From positions 1 through 59,580 of the forward strand of contig NZ_BCSG01000029.1 of the NCBI RefSeq assembly GCF_001570745.1: a DNA stretch of 59,580 bases, read 5' to 3'. Both the position numbers and the translations under genes were made by a program. How positions within the stretch are numbered: the first letter of the stretch is position 1; each line of letters begins with the position of its first letter. Below are positions 18,463 to 59,502 of this stretch, in pieces. Under the pieces are notes generated by a model. It saw only the letters and a program-made list of their open reading frames with translations. It was not told where the DNA came from and made no database searches. Source of the DNA: Alicyclobacillus mali NBRC 102425. Its GTDB lineage: Bacteria; Bacillota; Bacilli; Alicyclobacillales; Alicyclobacillaceae.

Positions 18463-19287
18463 TCAAGACGTCTTTCGCTGCCTCCGTTTCCTCGGCTGCG
18501 ATGTTTCGGCCTGTTTCGCAAGCTGCACGCTCTTTTTCAGCGCCTCCATCAGATCCACGACCTCTCCCGTTGCTTGCACGCCAGGCTTCTCCGTCCCTCC
18601 CTCTCCGCGCCGCTCGGCTATCCACGCCTCCAATCGCACTCGACTCTCGTCTCGATAATCGTTTGGCACAAACGGCTTGGTCAATTGCCGGATGAGCGTC
18701 TCCGCCACTTCGAGTTCGTTCGCATCGATGTCCACGGCCTCCCGAACGTACGGGAGCTCCCCCGTGGAGCGGACGTCCTCCGGCCATGCCAGTGCGTGTA
18801 CCACCAAGACTTCTCCGCCGGCATCACTCGCCCGCACGAGCGCGAGTGACTCCGCGTTCCTCAGCGTCATCCGGGCAACCCCTACGCGGCCCGACGCCTG
18901 AAGCGCCTTCCACAACAGCCGATACGCCTTCTTGCCACCAGCCTCAGGCGCGAGATAATACGCGCTCTGAAACATCACCGGGTCGATCTCGCCTGCGTCG
19001 GCGAATTGGACGAGATCGATGGTCTCGGCCCGGCGTCCCTGAAACGCCGTCAGTTCCTCGTCCTCCACCACGACAAACTCGCCCTTCGCGTATTCAAACC
19101 CGCGCACGATCTCGTCCTGCCCCACTTCCACCTGGCACCGCGGGCAGAACTTCTTGTACGTGATGGGGGTCCGACAGTCTCTGTGCAACTGCCGAAAATG
19201 AATCCCGCCCGTCTCCGTCGCCTTATACAGCCGCACAGGAATGTTCACGAGCCCGAAGCTCACTGATCCTCGCCACATCGCATGCAT
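18463..19287 (-). CDS. ku: NHEJ protein Ku
   Basis: A 274-residue bacterial Ku that binds DNA ends and recruits LigD. Seen: MWRGSVSFGLVNIPVRLYKA, a Cys-rich segment (HRDC, FCPRC) and EIVRGFEYAKGEFVV, then a Lys/Arg-rich C-terminal tail (RKRRQRK) that commonly aids DNA binding. Start at 19287 gives an 11-base spacing from GAGGGGG; an ATG 9 bases up would sit too close to that SD. It is only 27 bases downstream of dinG on the same strand, so probably co-transcribed with it. Confidence 0.93.
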   Translation of the reverse strand: MHAMWRGSVSFGLVNIPVRLYKATETGGIHFRQLHRDCRTPITYKKFCPRCQVEVGQDEIVRGFEYAKGEFVVVEDEELTAFQGRRAETIDLVQFADAGEIDPVMFQSAYYLAPEAGGKKAYRLLWKALQASGRVGVARMTLRNAESLALVRASDAGGEVLVVHALAWPEDVRSTGELPYVREAVDIDANELEVAETLIRQLTKPFVPNDYRDESRVRLEAWIAERRGEGGTEKPGVQATGEVVDLMEALKKSVQLAKQAETSQPRKRRQRKTS

Positions 19288-34448: not shown

Positions 34449-35294
34449 TTACTCCGTGTTTCTCGCGGCTTCAGCCCGCTTGCGCCTCCGCCTCGCTTCG
34501 TCAAGCAACATGTTCAATTCCGCCTCGTCTTCTCGCTCGAGGGTCGCGCGAAACGCCTGGGCCGCCGCTTCGAATCGTCTCAGCCAAGAGATGACGTGAT
34601 CGCGATTGGCCGCGAGTGTCTGAATCCAGAACTCCGACGGCGATGAGGCCAATCGGGTCACATCCCAAAAGGCGGGGCCCGCCATCTCCGCAAGGGCATC
34701 CGGCGCGCTCTCGGCCGCGAGGATGGCGCACTGGCTCGCAAGGTGAATGCCGTGGCTGACCTCTGCCATGCGCCGATCGTGCGCCTCGGCATCGGGGACC
34801 CATACGGTGCGAGCGCCGACGCGCTCGACGAGGTGCAGGACTTCTTCCGGCGGGCGGTGCGTCTCCAGGAATAGCCACGGCCTCTTCTCAAACAGCGATT
34901 CTTCCGCAGCGAGCGGCCCCGCCTGTGCCTTCCCCGCCATCGGGTGCGACGGTACGCCGCGCGATCCGGTGAGGACGCGATCCATCGCCTGCACAATCGG
35001 GCGCTTCACGCTGCAGACGTCCATCACCCGCGTTGCTTTGCCACGCACGCGAGGTAACATCTGAACGGCAGCGTCGACCGGCACGGCCAGCACGGCGAGA
35101 TCGTAGTCAGACGGCGCGCTCTCCAGGGCGTGCCACACACGTGCAAACGCGCCAAGCCGTCCCGCCTGCTCGCGATAGACAGCGTTTTGCTCTACGGCAT
35201 CGACTTCAAGGTGCGGCATGCGACGGGAAAGGGCGAGGCCCATCGACCCGCCGATGAGTCCCGCCCCCACAATGAGAACACGTTTCAGCGCCAT
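34449..35294 (-). CDS. tyrA: Prephenate dehydrogenase, no ACT domain
   Basis: A 281-residue NAD-dependent enzyme of tyrosine synthesis. Seen: VLIVGAGLIGGSMGLAL (NAD site), DVCSVKRPI, SHPMAGKAQAGP, and the catalytic-region SHGIHLASQ and PAFWDVTRLASS. Bacillus TyrA is about 370 residues with a C-terminal ACT domain; this protein ends at the dehydrogenase fold, so tyrosine feedback through ACT is absent. ATG at 35294 lies 5 bases after the aroG stop, with an alternative GTG overlapping that stop. Confidence 0.93.
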   Translation of the reverse strand: MALKRVLIVGAGLIGGSMGLALSRRMPHLEVDAVEQNAVYREQAGRLGAFARVWHALESAPSDYDLAVLAVPVDAAVQMLPRVRGKATRVMDVCSVKRPIVQAMDRVLTGSRGVPSHPMAGKAQAGPLAAEESLFEKRPWLFLETHRPPEEVLHLVERVGARTVWVPDAEAHDRRMAEVSHGIHLASQCAILAAESAPDALAEMAGPAFWDVTRLASSPSEFWIQTLAANRDHVISWLRRFEAAAQAFRATLEREDEAELNMLLDEARRRRKRAEAARNTE

Positions 35295-35299
35295 GGCCC

Positions 35300-36331
35300 T
35301 CACACCAAGCTGGCGGCGGGCTGGAACGTCTTCATCAATTGGTGAATCGCCCGCACCTGATGCGCCAGTTGATCGAATTCTTCGAGGGTAATCGTCTGGT
35401 TGCCGTCCGACCACGCCTGCGTCGGATCCTTGTGCACCTCGACGATCGCGCCGTGTGCGCCAGCCGCGATCCCCGCCCGCGCCATGTCCGTCACGTAGCG
35501 AGCGTGACCCACGCCATGCGACGGATCGACGAGAACGGGCAGGTGAGACAAGTGCTTCACCACGGGCACGGCGTTCAGGTCCAGCGTGTTGCGCGTGTAC
35601 GTCTCAAACGTCCGGATCCCGCGCTCACAGAGAATGACATTCGGGTTTCCCTCTGCCATGATGTATTCGGCCGACATGAGCCACTCCTCAATCGTGTTGG
35701 AGAAGCCTCGCTTTAGCAGAACTGGTTTGCCCGTGCGCCCAACGGCCTTGAGCAGCGGGAAGTTTTGCATGTTGCGAGCGCCAATCTGAAGGACATCGAC
35801 GTACTCGGCGACGAGCGGCACGAGGCCCGGCTCCATGACCTCCGATACGATGGCGAGCCCGGTCTCCTCCCGCGCGTCCGCCAGGTACTTCAGGCCCTCC
35901 TCGCCGAGCCCTTGGAACGAGTACGGGGACGATCTCGGCTTAAACGCGCCGCCCCGCAGCATGTGCGCCCCGCTTCGCTTGATAGCGCGCGCGATCTCGA
36001 GCAACCCCTCCCGCGTCTCTACCGAACACGGCCCCGCGATAAGCGTCGGCTCCGGACCGCCGACAACGTGACCGCGAATCTCAATCCGCGTGTCGTCCGG
36101 GTGAAAGGGGCGACTCGCGAGCTTGAACGGATAACTCACCGTCACCAGCTTCTCCACGCCCGGCAACGTCTCGATGCCAAGCTCATGCACCTTCTCCTTC
36201 GCGCCGATCACGCCGATCACGGTCGTCTCCTCGCCGACAGACAGATGCGCCCCAAGCCCCTTGCTCTTGAGCAGCTCCATCACGCGCTCGATCTCTGACT
36301 GCGACGCGCCCTCCTTCATCACGACGATCAT
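35300..36331 (-). CDS. 3-deoxy-7-phosphoheptulonate (DAHP) synthase
   Basis: A 343-residue type I-beta DAHP synthase, first step of the shikimate pathway. The N-terminal ferredoxin-like regulatory domain (about 1-70, [17 protein letters not shown]) precedes the barrel with [35 protein letters not shown] and [13 protein letters not shown]. The regulatory domain can mediate Phe/Tyr control, as in Thermotoga. ATG with GGAGGAG upstream; own promoter and a palindrome over the start site. Followed by tyrA. Confidence 0.95.
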
Positions 36332-36363
36332 GTTTCTCTCTCCTCCAAGCATTTTTTGTACGA

Positions 36364-36378
36364 TTCAAATGGTTTGAA
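36364..36378 (-). promoter_or_regulatory. Palindromic operator candidate for DAHP synthase-tyrA
   Basis: TTCAAA-CCA-TTTGAA on the minus strand, a perfect 6-bp inverted repeat. It starts one base after the -10 and would overlap the transcription start. Likely a repressor site; the regulator is unknown. Confidence 0.5.
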
Positions 36379-36379
36379 A

Positions 36380-36408
36380 AGTCTATCACAATCGGCGAAA
36401 GAGGACAA
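36380..36408 (-). promoter_or_regulatory. Promoter of DAHP synthase-tyrA
   Basis: TTGTCC (36408-36403), 17-base spacer, TAGACT (36385-36380) with TGA in front (extended -10), in the gap after trpA. Confidence 0.65.
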
Positions 36409-36413
36409 TCCCG

Positions 36414-37217
36414 TCAACGCGGGTGAGTGGATTCCCTCGCCGCTTGTTTGAGTTGTTCGGTGAACGAGCGCACCGCGTCGACGGGGTCTCGCCCCTCGCG
36501 GAGCGCGTCGCCGATGCGCCGCACATAGGCACTGCCCACGATGACGCCGTCCGCGAATTCCGAGATTTCGCGCACGTGCTCAGGCTGGCTCACGCCAAAT
36601 CCCACGCACGCGGGCAGGTCCGTGTGCTTGCGGACGAGATCGACGAGCTCGCGGACCTGCCGCGACACCTGCTGTCGCTCCCCCGTGACGCCGAGCGACG
36701 AGACGCAGTACACAAAACCTCGCGCCGCTTGGACAATCGCGCGCACCCGTTCCTCGCCCGAGGTAGGTGCGACGAGCGGGATGAACTGAATTCCGTGAGC
36801 CTCGGCTGCGGAGGCCACCTCACCCGCCTCCTCGAGCGGAACGTCTGGGACAATCACGCCGTCGCCGCCGGCAGCCGCGAGTTCACTGAAAAAGCGCTCC
36901 GCCCCATATTGAATGAGCGGGTTGACGTACGTGAAGGCGACGAGCGGCTTTGGCGATCGCGCTCGGACGTCCCGCACGAGGCGAAGGCAGTCCACGAGGC
37001 GCGTGCCTTGCTTCAGACTACGTACCGCGGCCGCCTGAATGACTGGGCCGTCGGCCAGCGGGTCGGAATACGGAAAGCCGATTTCGAGCATGTCCGCCCC
37101 TGCATCCAGAATGGCGGTCGCGATATGGAGTGAGCGCGCGTAGTCCGGATCGCCAGCCACGACGAAGGGAACGAGAAGCTTGTGACTTGCTTGAAACGCA
37201 TCACGGATGCGATCCAT
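36414..37217 (-). CDS. trpA: Tryptophan synthase alpha subunit
   Basis: A 267-residue TIM barrel cleaving indole-3-glycerol phosphate to indole, channelled to TrpB. Seen: [29 protein letters not shown] (catalytic Glu and Asp), [12 protein letters not shown], and [10 protein letters not shown] (phosphate loop). Start at 37217 chosen for the GAGGGGG SD; it overlaps trpB by 17 bases. An ATG 9 bases up is inside the SD. Confidence 0.95.
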
Positions 37218-38415
37218 TGACTTCATCCCCCTCTCGCGCAGCCACCTGTTCGACGTCCTTGTCGCCGCGGCCAGAGAGGCAGACGACGACGACGTCATTG
37301 GGGCCGTATCGACCCGCTTCCCGCATCAGGTACGCGACGGCGTGCGCGCTCTCGAGCGCCGGAATGATGCCTTCCAGCTTCGACAGAAGAAAGAACGCCT
37401 CGAGCGCCTCGTCGTCTGTCACGGGCACGTACGTGGCGCGACCCGTCGCCGCGAGATGAGCGTGTTCAGGACCAATGCCCGGATAGTCGAGTCCCGCCGA
37501 GATGGAATGGGCGGGTTGGACCTGACCGTACTCGTCCTGCAGCAGCATGGTCTTGGCTCCATGCAGGACCCCCGGTCGCCCGCGCGCGATGCTCGCGGCG
37601 TGATAAGCCGTGCCCAACCCGTGTCCTGCGGCCTCGCAGCCAATGAGTTCCACGCCGTCATCCTCAATGAACGGGTAAAAGATCCCCATGGCGTTCGAGC
37701 CGCCGCCGACGCAGGCCACCACGCTCGTGGGCAGGCGGCCTTCCTGCTGAAGGATTTGAGCCTTCGCCTCGTCGCCAATGATCCGCTGAAAATCGCGAAC
37801 GATCATGGGATACGGATGGGGCCCTACGACGGACCCGATGATGTAATGGGTGTCGTCGACGTGCGCCACCCAGTGGCGAATGGCCTCATTCGTCGCGTCC
37901 TTGAGCGTCCTCGTCCCCGACGTGGCCGCCACCACTTCGCCGCCAAGCATCCGCATCCGAAACACGTTCAGCGCCTGCCGGCGCATGTCCTCTTCGCCCA
38001 TGAACACCGTGCATTCCAAGCCAAACCGCGCGGCCACCGTCGCCGTCGCCACCCCGTGCTGACCCGCGCCCGTCTCTGCGATCACGCGCCGCTTGCCCGT
38101 CCGAAGTGCGAGCAGAGCTTGGCCGATGGCGTTGTTGATTTTGTGAGCACCGGTGTGATTCAGGTCTTCGCGCTTGAGGTAGACCTTCGGCCCACCAAGG
38201 TGCTTGGTCAGGCGCTCCGCGTAATACAGCGGCGTCGGCCTGCCCGCATATTGCTGCAAATAATACTTGAGTTCCTCTTGAAACGACTCGTCGCGCGAGA
38301 GGCGCAGGTAATCTTGCTCCAACTGCAAGAGAGCCGACATGAGCGTCTCGGGGACGTATCGCCCGCCGAACGCGCCATATCGCCCCGATTCGTCAGGAAA
38401 CGGATAATGACTCAT
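37201..38415 (-). CDS. trpB: Tryptophan synthase beta subunit
   Basis: A 404-residue PLP enzyme joining indole and serine. Seen: [27 protein letters not shown] (PLP lysine), [29 protein letters not shown], and [16 protein letters not shown]. All signature residues are present. It overlaps trpF by 23 bases. Confidence 0.97.
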
Positions 38416-39091
38416 GGCCCCACGCCTCCATCGCCTGGATCAACTGCTCAATCCGGCGGACATCCTTTCGCCCGCCCACTTCGACGCCCGACGACACATC
38501 GATGCCGACAGGTTGCACCCGGTTCAGCAATTCCCGAACGTTTTCCGGCGTAATACCACCTGCGACCCACCAGTCGAAGCTCAGTGCCGGCGCCACTTCG
38601 ACCAAGCCATCCCAGTCGAACGCTCGACCGTGCCCGCCCGTAACGCCTGGCTCCGCATTCGCGGGAGGTTTGGCATCCAAGAGGATGGCGTCCGCGGAAG
38701 ATGCATGCGACCTCAAAACATCCAGAAACGACGTCGCGTCGTCTCCGGGGTCGAACGCGACCGCGCGCCACACTCGAAATCCGGCCTCGCGAAGCCGCAC
38801 AGCGACGTCCCGCGGCTCCCCGCCGTGCAACTGTACCACGTCGACACCCGCCCGCCTTGCAGCCTCAGCGACGTCTTCGCCCAATCCACCCGACACCACC
38901 GCCACGGCGATCACGTCCGGCCGAATTCGCTTGGCGGCGCGGACAAGTTGGCCCGCCTCGTCCGGGGACACGTTGCGCCTCGATGCCGGGACCATTACGA
39001 CGCCGATGTGCGACACGACAGAGTGGCGCAGAAACGACAGATCGTCACCAGGCCGAAGCCCACAAATTTTCAGATGCGGTACGCGCTTCAC
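38393..39091 (-). CDS. trpF: Phosphoribosylanthranilate isomerase
   Basis: A 232-residue TIM-barrel isomerase. Seen: [11 protein letters not shown] (catalytic Cys), [16 protein letters not shown] (catalytic Asp), GTGxxFDW-like [12 protein letters not shown], and [10 protein letters not shown]. Start overlaps the trpC stop by 4 bases (ATGA). Confidence 0.95.
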
Positions 39092-39891
39092 TTTGCCACC
39101 GCCCCAAGCGGGACGCGGAGATCCGCCACCTGCGTCCGCACAGACGCGAGATCCGCGTGGCGCATCAGCAGTTCGCCAACCAGGATGCCTCGCGCGCCCG
39201 CCGCCGCCATCCGCTGAGCGTCTTCTCGCGTCATGATGCCGCTCTCGGCAATGGCGAGCGTCCCTTCCGGCAACCGTTGCAGCACGCGCTCCGAGGTTCC
39301 TAAATCCACCTCGAACGTCCGCAGGTCGCGGTTGTTGATCCCAATCAAGGTTGGTTCGGCTGCGACCGCCGCCTCTACCTCATCCTCTCCATGGACTTCG
39401 AGCAGAACCTCAAGTCCCCGGGATCGCGCGTACCTCGATAGCTCCCCCAGCCGAGCCGCAGGCATGGCTGCAGCAATCAGCAACAGGATATCCGCACCTG
39501 CCGATACCGCCTCATCCACCTGTACCTCGTCAATCACGAAGTCCTTGCGCAACACGGGAAGTTGCACGGCCGAGCGGGCAACTCGCAGGTCCGCAAGTGC
39601 TCCGTGAAAATACGTCTCGTCCGTCAGCACGGAGATGGCGGAAGCGCCGCCCTGTTCATACACCCTCGCGCGCTCCGCAGGATCCACGTTCGCCTGTAGC
39701 ACACCTTTCGACGGACTCTTGCGCTTGATTTCGGCGATCACGCCCAGCCGCTCATCCTGGCGCAGGCGCTGCGCCAGGGAGCGAAAGGGCACAGTCCGCT
39801 CTGGAAGTGGACCTTCGCGGTCTATGCGCTGGCGCAGCACTTCGACCTCGCGGCGCTTGGTTTCTAGAATCCGTTCCAAGATGGTCGTCAC
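39088..39891 (-). CDS. trpC: Indole-3-glycerol-phosphate synthase
   Basis: A 267-residue TIM barrel. Seen: VIAEIKRKSPSKGVLQ (catalytic Glu/Lys), VLTDETYFHGALADL, VLRKDFVIDEVQVDEA, IGINNRDLRTFEVD, and AESGIMTREDAQRM. GTG start overlaps the trpD stop by 4 bases (GTGA). Confidence 0.96.
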   Translation of the reverse strand: MTTILERILETKRREVEVLRQRIDREGPLPERTVPFRSLAQRLRQDERLGVIAEIKRKSPSKGVLQANVDPAERARVYEQGGASAISVLTDETYFHGALADLRVARSAVQLPVLRKDFVIDEVQVDEAVSAGADILLLIAAAMPAARLGELSRYARSRGLEVLLEVHGEDEVEAAVAAEPTLIGINNRDLRTFEVDLGTSERVLQRLPEGTLAIAESGIMTREDAQRMAAAGARGILVGELLMRHADLASVRTQVADLRVPLGAVAK

Positions 39892-40937
39892 GGGCTCACC
39901 GCCTCCTCTGCGCCCGCAAGTTGTCGGGAGCCCTCGACAAACGCCTCCAGAACCGCATAGGCGCTTCCGCTATCCACGATCTCGGCGGCCATTTCCACGC
40001 CTTCTCGCACCGAGGCTGCCTTGCCGCCCACGTACAGGGCCGCCCCGGCGTTGTAGAGGACCACGTCGCGCTTCGGCCCGCGCTCGTCGCCGGCGAGGAC
40101 GCGGCGGACGATTTCGGCGTTCTCCTCCGGTGTTCCGCCTCGCAACGCTTCGACGGGTGCCGCACAGAGACCCACATCCTCCGGGACAAGCCGATACGCC
40201 CGAACGGCGCCGTCTTTGACCTCCGCCACGAGCGACGGACCGGCGAGCGACAATTCATCCAGTCCGCCGGCGCCATGCACCACCAGCGCATGCTCTGAAC
40301 CGAGCGCCGCGAGCGCGTCTCCGACGACCGAGACCAGCTTTTCGTGAAAGACACCGAGGACCTGGCGCCTGGCGCCCGCTGGGTTCGTCAAGGGGCCGAG
40401 GATATTGAAGATGGTCCTGAACCCAAGTTCCTTCCGCACTTGGGCTGCGGCCTTCATTGCGGGGTGGTACACTTGCGCAAACAGAAAGCAGACGCCCGTT
40501 TCGCGAAGCAGGATCTGCGATGCGGACACAGGCAGATCAATGACCGCGCCAAGCGCCTGCAGCACGTCGGCGCTGCCGCTCCTGCTGGAAGCCGCCCGGT
40601 TGCCGTGCTTCGCAACAGGGATACCCGCGGCCGCAGCGACAAAGGCAACGGCGGTCGAGATGTTGAACGTGTCCTTGCCGTCTCCACCGGTGCCGCAGGT
40701 GTCAAGCGACCCCTCAGGGGCTTCGAAGCGAACCGCGCGGCTGCGCATGGCTCTCGCAAAGCCCGCGATCTCGCAGGCCCGCTCTCCGCGATAGGCCATC
40801 ACGCTCACGAGCGCGGACGCCTGCACGGGAGACACGTGACCATCCATCCACGCGCTAAGAAATGCTTCCGCTTCCGCTTCATCCAATATTTTACCAGAAA
40901 CGACAGCACCAATTGCATTCCGAACGATGTCCTGCAT
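39888..40937 (-). CDS. trpD: Anthranilate phosphoribosyltransferase
   Basis: A 349-residue enzyme joining anthranilate and PRPP. Seen: DTCGTGGDGKDTFNIST (PRPP loop), VAKHGNRAASSRSGSAD, FLFAQVYHPAM, RTIFNILGPLTNPA. ATG at 40937 with SD GAGAGGAG 7 bases upstream. This SD is embedded in a series of (G/T)AG triplets, so TRAP binding would block initiation. It is the first gene of trpDCFBA here; trpE and trpG are not in the window. Confidence 0.96.
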   Translation of the reverse strand: MQDIVRNAIGAVVSGKILDEAEAEAFLSAWMDGHVSPVQASALVSVMAYRGERACEIAGFARAMRSRAVRFEAPEGSLDTCGTGGDGKDTFNISTAVAFVAAAAGIPVAKHGNRAASSRSGSADVLQALGAVIDLPVSASQILLRETGVCFLFAQVYHPAMKAAAQVRKELGFRTIFNILGPLTNPAGARRQVLGVFHEKLVSVVGDALAALGSEHALVVHGAGGLDELSLAGPSLVAEVKDGAVRAYRLVPEDVGLCAAPVEALRGGTPEENAEIVRRVLAGDERGPKRDVVLYNAGAALYVGGKAASVREGVEMAAEIVDSGSAYAVLEAFVEGSRQLAGAEEAVSP

Positions 40938-40939
40938 GA

Positions 40940-41002
40940 CTCGACTCCTCTCAACTAAGCGCCATAAGGGGCGCACTCCCCTACCTCAACTCAGCTCGAC
41001 TG
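40940..41002 (-). promoter_or_regulatory. Putative TRAP-binding site over the trpD SD
   Basis: Minus-strand leader triplets: CAG 41002-41000, GAG 40997-40995, GAG 40992-40990, GAG 40987-40985, TAG 40983-40981, GAG 40978-40976, TAG 40957-40955, GAG 40952-40950, GAG 40947-40945, GAG 40942-40940. Spacers are 2 bases except one of 1 base and one interruption of 18 bases that holds a GCGCC/GGCGC hairpin. TRAP binds NAG triplets (G or U first) at 2-3 base spacing. The SD lies in the second block, pointing to translational repression when tryptophan is plentiful. mtrB itself is in this window. Confidence 0.75.
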
Positions 41003-41025
41003 ACGTCCACAGAGCTGTTACGACT

Positions 41026-41054
41026 ATGTTAGCCGCCACGATCTCATTCGTCAA
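41026..41054 (-). promoter_or_regulatory. Promoter of trpDCFBA
   Basis: TTGACG (41054-41049), 17-base spacer, TAACAT (41031-41026), between aroH and trpD. The predicted start near 41019 gives a leader of about 80 bases with the TRAP site from about +17. There is no terminator hairpin in the leader. Confidence 0.75.
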
Positions 41055-41092
41055 CCAAGGCCATGAAAGTTGGGCAGAGAGAAATGATGGCT

Positions 41093-41461
41093 TTATCGCG
41101 TTGCGATGTCTGGGCGCAGTTGCACGGCTTCGCCCAGATAGACGTGGATGAGCTCGTCCTGGCGCTTGTCGGTATTCAGATGCACCAACACGCGAATGCT
41201 GCGAGGCAGCGAACCCGGCACGTCGATTTCCGTCGCGCACATGAGGGGCACCCACTGCCAGCCAGGAAGCTGCCGAACAGCAAAAGCGGGAAACGCAGCG
41301 TTCAAATCAGGCGTCATGGTCAGGATGACGCTTGCTACATCGTCCACGTCGATCTCGTTGACACGAACGATTTCCTGCATCAGTTCGCGAGTTGCCCGCA
41401 GAATCTCCTCTCGGTCGTTGCGGGTCACCGTCGTGGCCCCGCGCAGTCCTCGCACCTTCAT
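41093..41461 (-). CDS. aroH: Chorismate mutase, AroH type
   Basis: A 122-residue trimeric AroH-fold chorismate mutase making prephenate. Seen: [12 protein letters not shown] (active-site Arg), [32 protein letters not shown], and [11 protein letters not shown] (second Arg). Start overlaps the aroB stop by 4 bases. Length equals Bacillus AroH (127) within a few residues. Confidence 0.95.
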
Positions 41462-42549
41462 GGATGGTGTCCCTCCCTCGCCTCTTCGTATGCCTGCCTC
41501 ACCTCATCGGGCTGAACCTTGCAGATTTCCACCCGACCAATGGCAGCGGGCAGCGCGAACGTCCACCCGTCGTGTGTGTGTTTCTTGTCAACCTCAATCA
41601 GCCGCAGCACCGCGTCCACGTCCGGATAAGGCGGGCGCGTGGGCAACGCGTGCCGGGCGAGCACGGCCGCGATGCGCGCGGCATCTACCTCCGGCAGGCA
41701 GCCTCGCCTCGCGGCGATGATGGCCTCGACCACCAACCCGATGGCCACAGCCTCGCCGTGGCCCAGGGAATAACCCGAATACTGCTCGACCGCATGACCC
41801 ACGGTGTGCCCGACATTCAGCACCTGCCTGAGCCCGGTCTCCCGCTCATCCTGGTTCACCACATCCACCTTCACCCGCATCGCGCGCGCGAGCACGTCCA
41901 CGAACTCAGCCGGATCGCCAAGGCCCGCCACGGGGTTTGTCTCCAGCTGGTCAAACAAGATGATATCCGCGATGATGGCGTGCTTGATGACCTCGGCCAT
42001 CCCGTTGCTCCACTGGCGGGAATCGAGCGTGGAGAGCGCCTCGGTATCAAACAGCACAGCGCGCGGAGGATAGAACGCGCCGACCAGGTTTTTGCCCTCC
42101 TCGAGGTTGACGCCCACCTTGCCGCCGATGGCGCTGTCGTGCGCGAGCAACGTCGTCGGCACCTGCACGTACGGGACGCCCCGCATATACGTCGCCGCCA
42201 CGAAACCGGCCAGATCGCCCACCACGCCGCCGCCTACGGCCAGGATGACGTCACCGCGGCGAAACCCGTGCCTGAGCAGGCCGTGATAGATTTGCACGGC
42301 CGTTCCCAGGTTCTTGTGCGCATCGCCAGCCGGAAACGCGAGCTCGAACACCCCTCGCCCCACCTTCGCCAGGGCGTCCACCAGCTCCCGCGCAAACGCC
42401 GTCTTTTGCACCATCTCGTCCGTGATGACCGCGACCTTCCGGTCCGCCAGTCCGAGCTCCTGCAAGAGCCCGGGCAGCAAGCGCCTGGCTCCCGCGTCGA
42501 CGAGGACGGGATACGCCCCTTGGGCGCTTCGTACGTCGAGGCGGATCAT
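41458..42549 (-). CDS. aroB: 3-dehydroquinate synthase
   Basis: A 363-residue NAD/zinc enzyme, second step of the shikimate pathway. Seen: [52 protein letters not shown], and the zinc ligands in [24 protein letters not shown] and [10 protein letters not shown]. It overlaps aroC by 4 bases (ATGA) and aroH by 4. Confidence 0.97.
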
Positions 42550-43700
42550 CGCTGACTCACCCGCGCCTGATATGCCTGGAAGGCATCCTCAATCTGCTCC
42601 AGCGAGTCTCCGGCGAATTTCTCCAAAAACGCGTCGGCGATAACCCAGGCGACCACGTTTTCCCCGACGACGGACGCTGCCGGAAGCGCACAGATGTCAG
42701 AGCGCTCGATGGCCGCGGGCTCTACCTCCTTCGTCTTCATGTTCACGCTCGGAAGCGGATTGTACAACGTGCTGATGGGCTTCATGGCGGCCCGGATGAC
42801 GATGTCTTCCCCGTTGGTCACCCCGCCCTCGAGTCCGCCAGCCCCGTTATGCGAACGTACGTAGCGTGTGCCGCTGTACAAGATGGGATCGTGCACCTTG
42901 GAGCCCATGCGCCGGGCCGCTTCAAAGCCGAGCCCAATCTCCACACCCTTGATGGCCTGAATGCTCATCAGGGCTGCGGCGAGCCTCCCATCCAGCTTTC
43001 GATCCGGCTGCGCGTAGCTGCCAAGCCCAATGGGACAGCCCCGCACAATCACCTCGAAGATGCCGCCGACCGTATCCCCGGCCGCCTTGGCCTCGTCGAT
43101 GCGCGCCATCATCTGTTCGGCTGCCGCCTCGTCCGCGCACCGCACCGGAGAGGCGTTCGCGCGCGCCTCGAGTTCCTCCAGCGTGTCGGGAAATTGGGCC
43201 GCCTTCACATCGCACAACTCGACCACGTGCGCCGCGACCTGAATGCCGAAATGCTCCAGGAGCTGCCTGGCGAGCGCGCCCGCCGCCACCAGCGTCGCCG
43301 TATTGCGCGCGCTTGCGCGCTCAAGGACGTTGCGGATGTCCTCGTGATCGTACTTGATGGCCCCGGCGAGATCTGCGTGCCCTGGCCGCGGGCGATAAAT
43401 CTCCCTGAGATTTTCCGGCTTGTCACCAAACGGCGCCATCTTCTCCGACCAATTTTTGAAGTCTCGGTTCTGAACGACCAGCGTGATGGGCGTGCCGAGC
43501 GTCTTCCCGAAGCGAATCCCGCTCGTCACCTGCACCTCGTCCGACTCGATTTGCTGGCGATAACCGCGACCATACCCCTGCTGTCTGCGTCGCAATTGTT
43601 CGTCAATTTTCTCTTTGCGGATGGTCACGTTGCTCGGAAAGCCGTCAATCACCACGGTCAAGGCCGGGCCATGCGATTCTCCTGCCGACAAGTAACGCAA
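42546..43700 (-). CDS. aroC: Chorismate synthase
   Basis: A 384-residue FMN-dependent enzyme producing chorismate. Seen: RYLSAGESHGPALTVVIDG, RRQQGYGRG, RPGHADLAGAIKYDHEDIRNVLERASARNT in segments, and DRKLDGRLAAAL. TTG at 43700 gives the family N-terminus (M)RYLSAGESHG and has GGAGGGG 8 bases upstream. A GTG 18 bases up is a weaker choice. First gene of aroC-aroB-aroH, with an extended -10 promoter at 43763-43771. Confidence 0.95.
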   Translation of the reverse strand: MRYLSAGESHGPALTVVIDGFPSNVTIRKEKIDEQLRRRQQGYGRGYRQQIESDEVQVTSGIRFGKTLGTPITLVVQNRDFKNWSEKMAPFGDKPENLREIYRPRPGHADLAGAIKYDHEDIRNVLERASARNTATLVAAGALARQLLEHFGIQVAAHVVELCDVKAAQFPDTLEELEARANASPVRCADEAAAEQMMARIDEAKAAGDTVGGIFEVIVRGCPIGLGSYAQPDRKLDGRLAAALMSIQAIKGVEIGLGFEAARRMGSKVHDPILYSGTRYVRSHNGAGGLEGGVTNGEDIVIRAAMKPISTLYNPLPSVNMKTKEVEPAAIERSDICALPAASVVGENVVAWVIADAFLEKFAGDSLEQIEDAFQAYQARVSQR

Positions 43701-43762
43701 CAAAGGCTGCCCCTCCACTTCCTGCTCTCTCCCATAAGCGTTCGTCTCTGCGAATTACCGGT

Positions 43763-59130: not shown

Positions 59131-59364
59131 TCACGCGTCCTCGTCGGTGCGCACAATCCCGTACCGAGTGTAGATGACGGCCTTTCCCCGGATCTTGATG
59201 GCCGACGTGTGCTCCGTGAACTGTGCAATCATGACTTCGCTCTTGTCCAATTTCTCAGCATGATGAAATCGCGTCTGAGGGCCACGCGTCATGCCGTTCA
59301 CCTGAACTCCGTTTTCAAGGGCCCGAATCACCACGTAATCGCCGCTGTAGGGCGTGTCAGCCAA
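59131..59364 (-). CDS. mtrB: Tryptophan RNA-binding attenuation protein TRAP
   Basis: A 77-residue subunit of the 11-mer TRAP ring. The RNA-binding residues of Bacillus MtrB are kept: E37-K38 and D40 (EKLDK), K57 and R59 (IKIRG). The tryptophan pocket (GMTRG...[16 protein letters not shown]) is also intact. With tryptophan, TRAP binds (G/U)AG repeats. A matching site precedes trpD in this window. TTG start with AAGGAGG (59379-59373) 8 bases upstream. It follows tRNA-Pro and a terminator hairpin with no room for its own promoter. Confidence 0.95.
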
Positions 59365-59425: not shown

Positions 59426-59502
59426 TGGTCGGAATGACGGGATTTGAACCCGTGACCTCTACCTCCCCAAGGTAGCGCGCTACCAGGCTGCGCCACATCC
59501 CG
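59426..59502 (-). tRNA. tRNA-Pro (GGG)
   Basis: 77 bases including encoded CCA. Acceptor CGGGATG pairs with CATTCCG (one G-T). Anticodon arm CTACC-TTGGGGA-GGTAG gives anticodon GGG. T-arm has GGGTTCAAATCCC. Own promoter upstream. Confidence 0.95.

Follow-up and report, generated by a model that had tools for sequence, protein, structure and literature searches.

A putative split TRAP site over the Shine-Dalgarno sequence of trpD in Alicyclobacillus mali and its relatives

Background

Can an operon that begins with trpD and contains no trpE be controlled by TRAP directly at its ribosome-binding site? This question is raised by the trpD leader of Alicyclobacillus mali NBRC 102425, where a sequence-only reading had noticed a series of (G/T)AG triplets which extends over the Shine-Dalgarno (SD) sequence. 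In Bacillus subtilis, TRAP controls the main trp operon mainly by an early end of transcription (attenuation). According to passages of the respective papers, the trp leader of Bacillus contains 11 triplets separated by spacers of 2-3 nt (PMC3913778), and individual spacers of a TRAP site can occasionally be longer (PMC5378976). Passages of two further papers report that TRAP of B. subtilis directly blocks the ribosome-binding site (PMC4347634) and that TRAP sites cover the SD sequences of trpG, trpP (yhaG), and ycbK (PMC11255114). Among the matches listed for the open literature, none dealt with TRAP in Alicyclobacillus or with trpD as the location of a TRAP site, although subscription reviews may mention either; likewise, no open paper combined 'trp RNA-binding attenuation' with 'Alicyclobacillus'. 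The DNA studied here, called the window in the following, is a stretch of 59,580 nt, which constitutes contig 29 (NZ_BCSG01000029.1) of the 2.79-Mb genome.

Results and discussion

The trpD leader and its operon

Nine (G/T)AG triplets and one CAG are present in the leader between positions 41002 and 40940 of the minus strand, and an insert of 18 nt divides them 5+4 (6+4 if the CAG is counted); the coordinates of all features are compiled in Table 1. Apart from the insert, all gaps comprise 2 nt, the only exception being a 1-nt gap before the TAG at 40983-40981. The array has the 9-11 (G/U)AG triplets, mostly 2-3 nt apart, that characterize a TRAP leader. In addition, triplets are located over the SD and the initiation region, as is characteristic of a site that blocks the SD: Four of them lie at most 20 nt upstream of the trpD start, and the last one ends 2 nt upstream of the ATG (40937-40935). 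Re-reading the coordinates confirmed what the sequence-only reading had stated about the number, spacing, and division of the triplets, and about a second block that holds the SD and stops 2 bases short of the start codon.

A promoter scan upstream of trpD gave one match, compared to a mean of 0.2 for shuffled sequences. Because the examined range 40937..41054 reaches up to this TTGACG/N17/TAACAT match, it comprises both promoter and leader. The gene order on the minus strand is aroC-aroB-aroH, followed by a gap of 155 nt and trpDCFBA.

Table 1. Features of the trpD locus and the TRAP gene in the window
Feature	Positions	Strand	Remarks
Promoter match TTGACG (41054-41049), 17 nt, TAACAT (41031-41026)	41026..41054	-	predicted sigma-A-type, between aroH and trpD
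TRAP-type block 1: CAG 41002-41000, GAG 40997-40995, GAG 40992-40990, GAG 40987-40985, TAG 40983-40981, GAG 40978-40976	40976..41002	-	five-triplet pattern match 40976-40997
Insert between the blocks, 18 nt	40958..40975	-	GCGCC (40974-40970) opposite GGCGC (40963-40959)
TRAP-type block 2, on the SD: TAG 40957-40955, GAG 40952-40950, GAG 40947-40945, GAG 40942-40940	40940..40957	-	four perfect triplets, 2-nt spacing
trpD SD, AGGAG	40945..40949	-	within block 2, holds GAG 40947-40945
trpD, ATG start	39888..40937	-	first gene of trpDCFBA; TIGR01245, 409 bits, above cut-off
Gene block downstream of trpD, trpC to prephenate dehydrogenase	34449..39891	-	
trpC	39088..39891	-	NCBIfam best match
trpF	38393..39091	-	NCBIfam best match
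trpB	37201..38415	-	NCBIfam best match
trpA	36414..37298	-	NCBIfam best match
DAHP synthase	35300..36352	-	after trpDCFBA; NCBIfam best match
Prephenate dehydrogenase	34449..35414	-	after trpDCFBA; NCBIfam best match
Upstream aro genes	41093..43718	-	
aroH	41093..41461	-	NCBIfam match
aroB	41458..42549	-	NCBIfam match
aroC	42546..43718	-	NCBIfam match
mtrB (TRAP), 77 aa	59131..59364	-	TTG start inferred; PF02081, 125.5 bits; NF009724, 131.4 bits, over cut-off

A second site upstream of trpG

The operon indeed starts without trpE: A trpE-like gene was found behind trpG on contig 37 and therefore trpE is not part of the main trp operon. This gene reaches 384.9 bits as anthranilate synthase component I, which is below the curated cut-off of 517.7 and well above its scores with the aminodeoxychorismate synthase models. 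The match of trpG to the TrpG/PabA subfamily is over the cut-off of a model that does not separate TrpG from PabA; both genes were named by their best family match. Two further chorismate-binding genes are located elsewhere in the genome.

Just upstream of trpG, in the leader immediately above position 3580 of contig 37 (minus strand), there is a second TRAP-type site. Here, an 18-nt insert carrying a 5-bp stem separates four upstream triplets from five downstream ones, the last of which stops 2 nt short of the ATG; the trpG-trpE operon has its own promoter match. Both operons thus possess the same type of element. The proposed TRAP-site interpretation is supported, and the evidence extends it to a second operon and, as described below, to the genus.

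Conservation of the triplet pattern and expectation by chance

The triplet pattern was rated by means of a chain score, which rewards 2-nt gaps and permits one long interruption. With a score of 7.25, the trpD leader was the best of 11,888 overlapping 140-nt windows taken from both strands of the window (mean 1.17, standard deviation 0.54, runner-up 5.75), and none of 300 dinucleotide shuffles reached this value. The runner-up (18581-18720, minus strand) was dropped, as it falls within a coding sequence which, by eye, resembles Ku. In the complete genome, a pattern of four perfect triplets at 2-nt spacing had three matches at two sites, and a relaxed five-triplet pattern had two matches at the same two sites, which are the trpD and the trpG leader; every true match of both patterns in this genome lies before trp genes. 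The genome-wide count is not in excess, as the reversed patterns gave 12 (versus 3) and 3 (versus 2) matches. It is therefore not the number of matches that is informative but their position, exclusively in trp leaders. Note that in a five-triplet scan of 41 genomes the reversed control is weak, because GAG read backwards is again GAG.

The comparison of trpD leaders covered 55 genomes: 15 belong to the genus, 24 to other genera of the family, and 16 to a sister family. Two genomes of the family whose contig ends cut trpD (G033, G037) were excluded, as was one paralogue locus (L073). The split array is kept in 15/15 trpD leaders of the genus, whose genomes are related and not independent of one another, with chains of 8-11 triplets, 3-5 of which follow the insert. 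The trpG leaders of the genus contain chains of 6-10 triplets, again in 15/15 cases. For any of these leaders, at most 6 (trpD) or 4 (trpG) of 300 shuffles scored as high. The scores range from 5.9 to 8.15 for trpD and from 4.05 to 8.2 for trpG, compared to 1-1.4 and 0-1 for the respective reverse-complement strands. Gaps of exactly 2 nt, which the score favours, account for 79 of the 117 gaps in trpD chains and for 62 of 102 in trpG chains. A promoter match of the form TTGACG-N17-TAnnAT precedes all 15 trpD arrays of the genus, with the first triplet 27-33 nt past the -10 element; a looser promoter pattern was found in 4 of the 40 trpD leaders from outside the genus.

It had been suggested to search related genomes for a conserved triplet spacing with varying bases in between. 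An inspection by eye showed that the inserts, and the spacers between subclades, vary in sequence and length while the pitch holds. The six closest genomes are almost wholly conserved, so that triplets and spacers cannot be separated among them; the expectation was borne out between subclades, and the nearest relatives are too alike to contribute. Could the triplets have arisen by chance, or simply because a ribosome-binding region is rich in purines? GAG belongs to any strong SD, and the frequency of the reversed patterns points in the same direction. However, the number, pitch, and order of the triplets exceed those of shuffles, the leader has the best score of the window, and the pattern recurs exactly at trp genes, both in this genome and in the genus. 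On the basis of the shuffles, the window score, the reverse-complement scores, and the match locations we have set aside this explanation, which is very improbable.

The genomic context is largely the same throughout the data set: A match to aroB or aroH was found upstream of trpD in 50 of the 55 loci, and queries with trpE and trpG matched none of the 55 within at most 1500 bases upstream. One genome (G035, 97% complete) has a triplet array before trpD (locus L046), yet no TRAP match and no close trpE match; this combination is due either to assembly gaps or to recent loss.

Terminators in the genus and in sister genera

No Bacillus-type attenuator, i.e. no hairpin with a U-run after the triplets, was found in the 250 nt upstream of the trpD start. 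In line with the stated lack of anything like the attenuator terminator of Bacillus trpE, a search of positions 40800-41300 gave no terminator-like element, although shuffles themselves gave only 0.4. In the comparison of leaders, a script retained the strongest hairpin with a T-run within 250 nt upstream of the start. In the genus, it detected such an element between the first triplet and the start in 0/15 trpD and in 0/15 trpG leaders. In five trpD leaders of the genus (L024, L028, L033, L062, L065), a strong hairpin with TTTT at its end occurs downstream of the promoter match, just before the first triplet and near the expected transcript start. This hairpin could be a 5' stem-loop, which the trp leader of B. 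subtilis also has, or the terminator of aroH.

The sister-genus leaders with terminators resemble those of the genus in that the order aro genes, leader, trpD is the same, the TRAP gene is present in most cases, and triplets occur upstream and often near the start. They differ in that their hairpin is accompanied by a T-run, whereas in the genus the hairpin between the blocks lacks a T-run. Of the 24 trpD leaders that represent other genera of the family, 20 contain a hairpin with a T-run, which is preceded by triplets and located 58-101 nt upstream of the start; the four without it stem from three genomes of one genus and from one of another. In the sister family, 15 of 16 trpD leaders have a terminator-like hairpin at most 115 nt from the start, and in the sixteenth it is located farther up. 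Among the trpG leaders from other genera of the family, 7/11 pass the terminator test; in the remaining four, a stem and a T-rich run are visible by eye and the script picked another hairpin. The sister family provides only four trpG rows, two of which (G045, G053) are weak (E about 1e-35), lie beside other genes, and are uninformative on trpG.

In a tree of TrpD and TrpC, 12 rows of the genus form one clade (100/100), which is placed beside a terminator-bearing genus (90/91), while the backbone is open. The tree covers 49 of the 55 rows, as six (three of them from the genus) were dropped due to a stop in the translated stretch. The simpler, though not proven, assumption is that the genus has lost the terminator.

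In minimum-energy folds of terminator-bearing leaders, the terminator formed in most cases, irrespective of whether the triplets were masked; a switch of the fold upon masking was rare (G026 and G051 for trpD, G047 for trpG). Several trpD leaders of other genera (e.g. L006, L008, L018, L050) contain a hairpin ATCCGCA...TGTGGAT with a T-run between the array and triplets near the start. This arrangement looks like a combination of TRAP attenuation and SD blocking; an antiterminator is not clear in the folds.

The insert and its hairpin

The trpD insert of this genome folds at z -3.75 relative to shuffles. Inserts in the genus are 18-67 nt (trpD) and 8-29 nt (trpG) long; 20 of the 30 fold at z -2 or lower, and the mean z is -2.36. 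Among the ten that miss this value are the trpG inserts of G003 and G009, which were shortened by the script because a GAG sits in the hairpin loop. Little or no folding excess was found for the trpD inserts of G004, G013, and G014 and for the trpG inserts of G006, G008, and G011; the trpD inserts of G001 and G007 are at about -1.5.

With respect to the GCGCC/GGCGC hairpin that had been noted between the blocks, the inverted repeat is present; only a minority of the free leader RNA is predicted to form the hairpin, with a pair probability of about 0.22 at 37 °C and 0.25 at 60 °C. The free trpD leader is predicted to fold in such a manner that triplets and SD are partly covered. The hairpin appears in the fold once the triplets are held unpaired, as is to be expected on TRAP. 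Compensatory changes were not found among the six closest genomes (94.4% paired cells versus 93.6% in shuffles), so that it is the folding which speaks for the hairpin. The passages of the TRAP literature consulted here describe no natural SD-covering TRAP site that contains a conserved hairpin.

The TRAP gene

According to the sequence-only reading, mtrB is intact. In agreement with this, the gene passes a curated cut-off, its product aligns over nearly the full length with solved TRAP chains, and it contains the stretches EKLDK and KIRGKA, in which we take the RNA-contact residues of TRAP to lie. The apparent TTG start (59362-59364, minus strand) has a GGAGG upstream and follows shortly after a tRNA gene (59429-59502, minus strand). 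A TRAP match was obtained for 38 of 41 genomes of the family and for 54 of 59 of the order; one of these genes is broken. In this case, the assembly matching the A. acidocaldarius type strain (G002), 67 bp are missing inside the coding frame in comparison to G003, which puts it out of frame (L216, C1:1760000-1764500). Provided that the assembly is correct, this strain lacks a functional TRAP, and repression of its trp genes by TRAP should be absent; the TRAP-type sites of trpD and trpG are present all the same. G002 would then constitute a natural test.

Mode of control

We consider the element in the trpD leader a TRAP binding site that represses translation of trpD, and assign to this reading a probability of about 0.77. 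It is based on the triplets and their conservation in the genus, on the promoter match and the complete TRAP gene, and on the fact that no attenuator-like terminator was found; the blocking of ribosomes is proposed in analogy to the reports on trpG, trpP, and ycbK of B. subtilis. If tryptophan is plentiful, tryptophan-loaded TRAP would wrap the trpD leader around itself via nine to ten triplets, and the insert would bulge out between the two halves of the site on the TRAP ring. Block 2, when bound to the ring, would hide the SD and hold down trpD and, as a consequence, the expression of trpDCFBA. The site of the same build at trpG-trpE would act alike, such that the two pathway operons would be switched together.

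As in the passages on the three B. subtilis sites, (G/U)AG triplets occupy the initiation region; in the present case, we infer TRAP binding, its dependence on tryptophan, the blocking of ribosomes, and the effect on downstream genes, and a further effect on transcription would be compatible. In contrast to those sites, the one described here would target the first gene of the main trp operon, trpD, and its two halves are kept apart by a structured insert of 18 nt; since longer spacers are known from passages on other TRAP sites, the split differs only in degree. With the attenuator of the Bacillus trpEDCFBA operon, the leader has the regulator and the triplet code in common. It differs from it, as neither a terminator or U-run nor, in the operon, a trpE gene was found and the array is located on the SD and not upstream of an attenuator. 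That a trpD-led operon using SD masking would be a variant is borne out: blocking of the SD by TRAP was known, and the variation lies in the trpD target and the split site.

An alternative is that TRAP binds to the leader and mainly halts the polymerase without an attenuator hairpin, the overlap with the SD being secondary. In B. subtilis, TRAP still lowered read-through about 12-fold after removal of both the U-stretch and the stem of the attenuator, as stated in a passage of PMC3913778, and triplets with a terminator-like hairpin are usual in sister-genus leaders. A site serving termination only need not, however, place its second block on the SD and end 2 nt before the ATG, as is the case for both trpD and trpG, and neither type of genus leader has a terminator-like hairpin after the first triplet; we regard this alternative as improbable. 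Somewhat less unlikely is a dual control, in which blocking of the SD is combined with TRAP-induced termination or mRNA decay, and which overlaps with the preferred explanation. It has a parallel in trpE of B. subtilis, which is controlled at the levels of transcription and translation according to a passage of PMC11255114, and in other genera of the family, where leaders with triplets and a terminator-like hairpin have another triplet block close to the start of trpD; the lack of any terminator found in the genus speaks against it. The sequence fits SD blocking and hairpin-free termination alike, and both may act.

Returning to translational repression as the preferred reading, a more far-reaching and still tentative idea is that the genus swapped TRAP attenuation for ribosome blocking at two unlinked operons in parallel. 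The terminator which sister genera have between triplets and gene would have been reduced to a small extruded hairpin, and a two-part leader would have become one split site with an internal RNA loop. If so, the whole tryptophan pathway would be switched at the level of translation only.

A genus that apparently controls both trp operons at the ribosome-binding site, beside sister genera with terminator-like hairpins, represents a natural series, which allows one to ask how the same protein shifts between transcriptional and translational control. In addition, the split site raises the question whether the TRAP ring tolerates an interruption by a hairpin. The interest is that of specialists, as the site is a variant of translational control by TRAP and not a novel type of system.

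Other regulatory elements

The Rfam T-box model gave no match at the gathering score in the window. Genome-wide, there were seven matches at E 0.001 or lower, one of them over the gathering score and none on contigs 29 or 37; a T-box control of trp was thus found neither in the window nor at the six genome matches whose downstream gene is identified (all but L041). For anti-TRAP (PF15777), this genome gave no match. The model matched 6 of the 41 genomes of the family, 5 of them over the cut-off; it is not specific, as it also matched 4 of 14 control genomes, including E. coli. One genome of the data set (G008) shows, by eye, a triplet array that separates an anti-TRAP gene from the start of a methyltransferase-like gene (locus L224, reverse complement, approximately positions 1710-1745) and is possibly a further target of TRAP.
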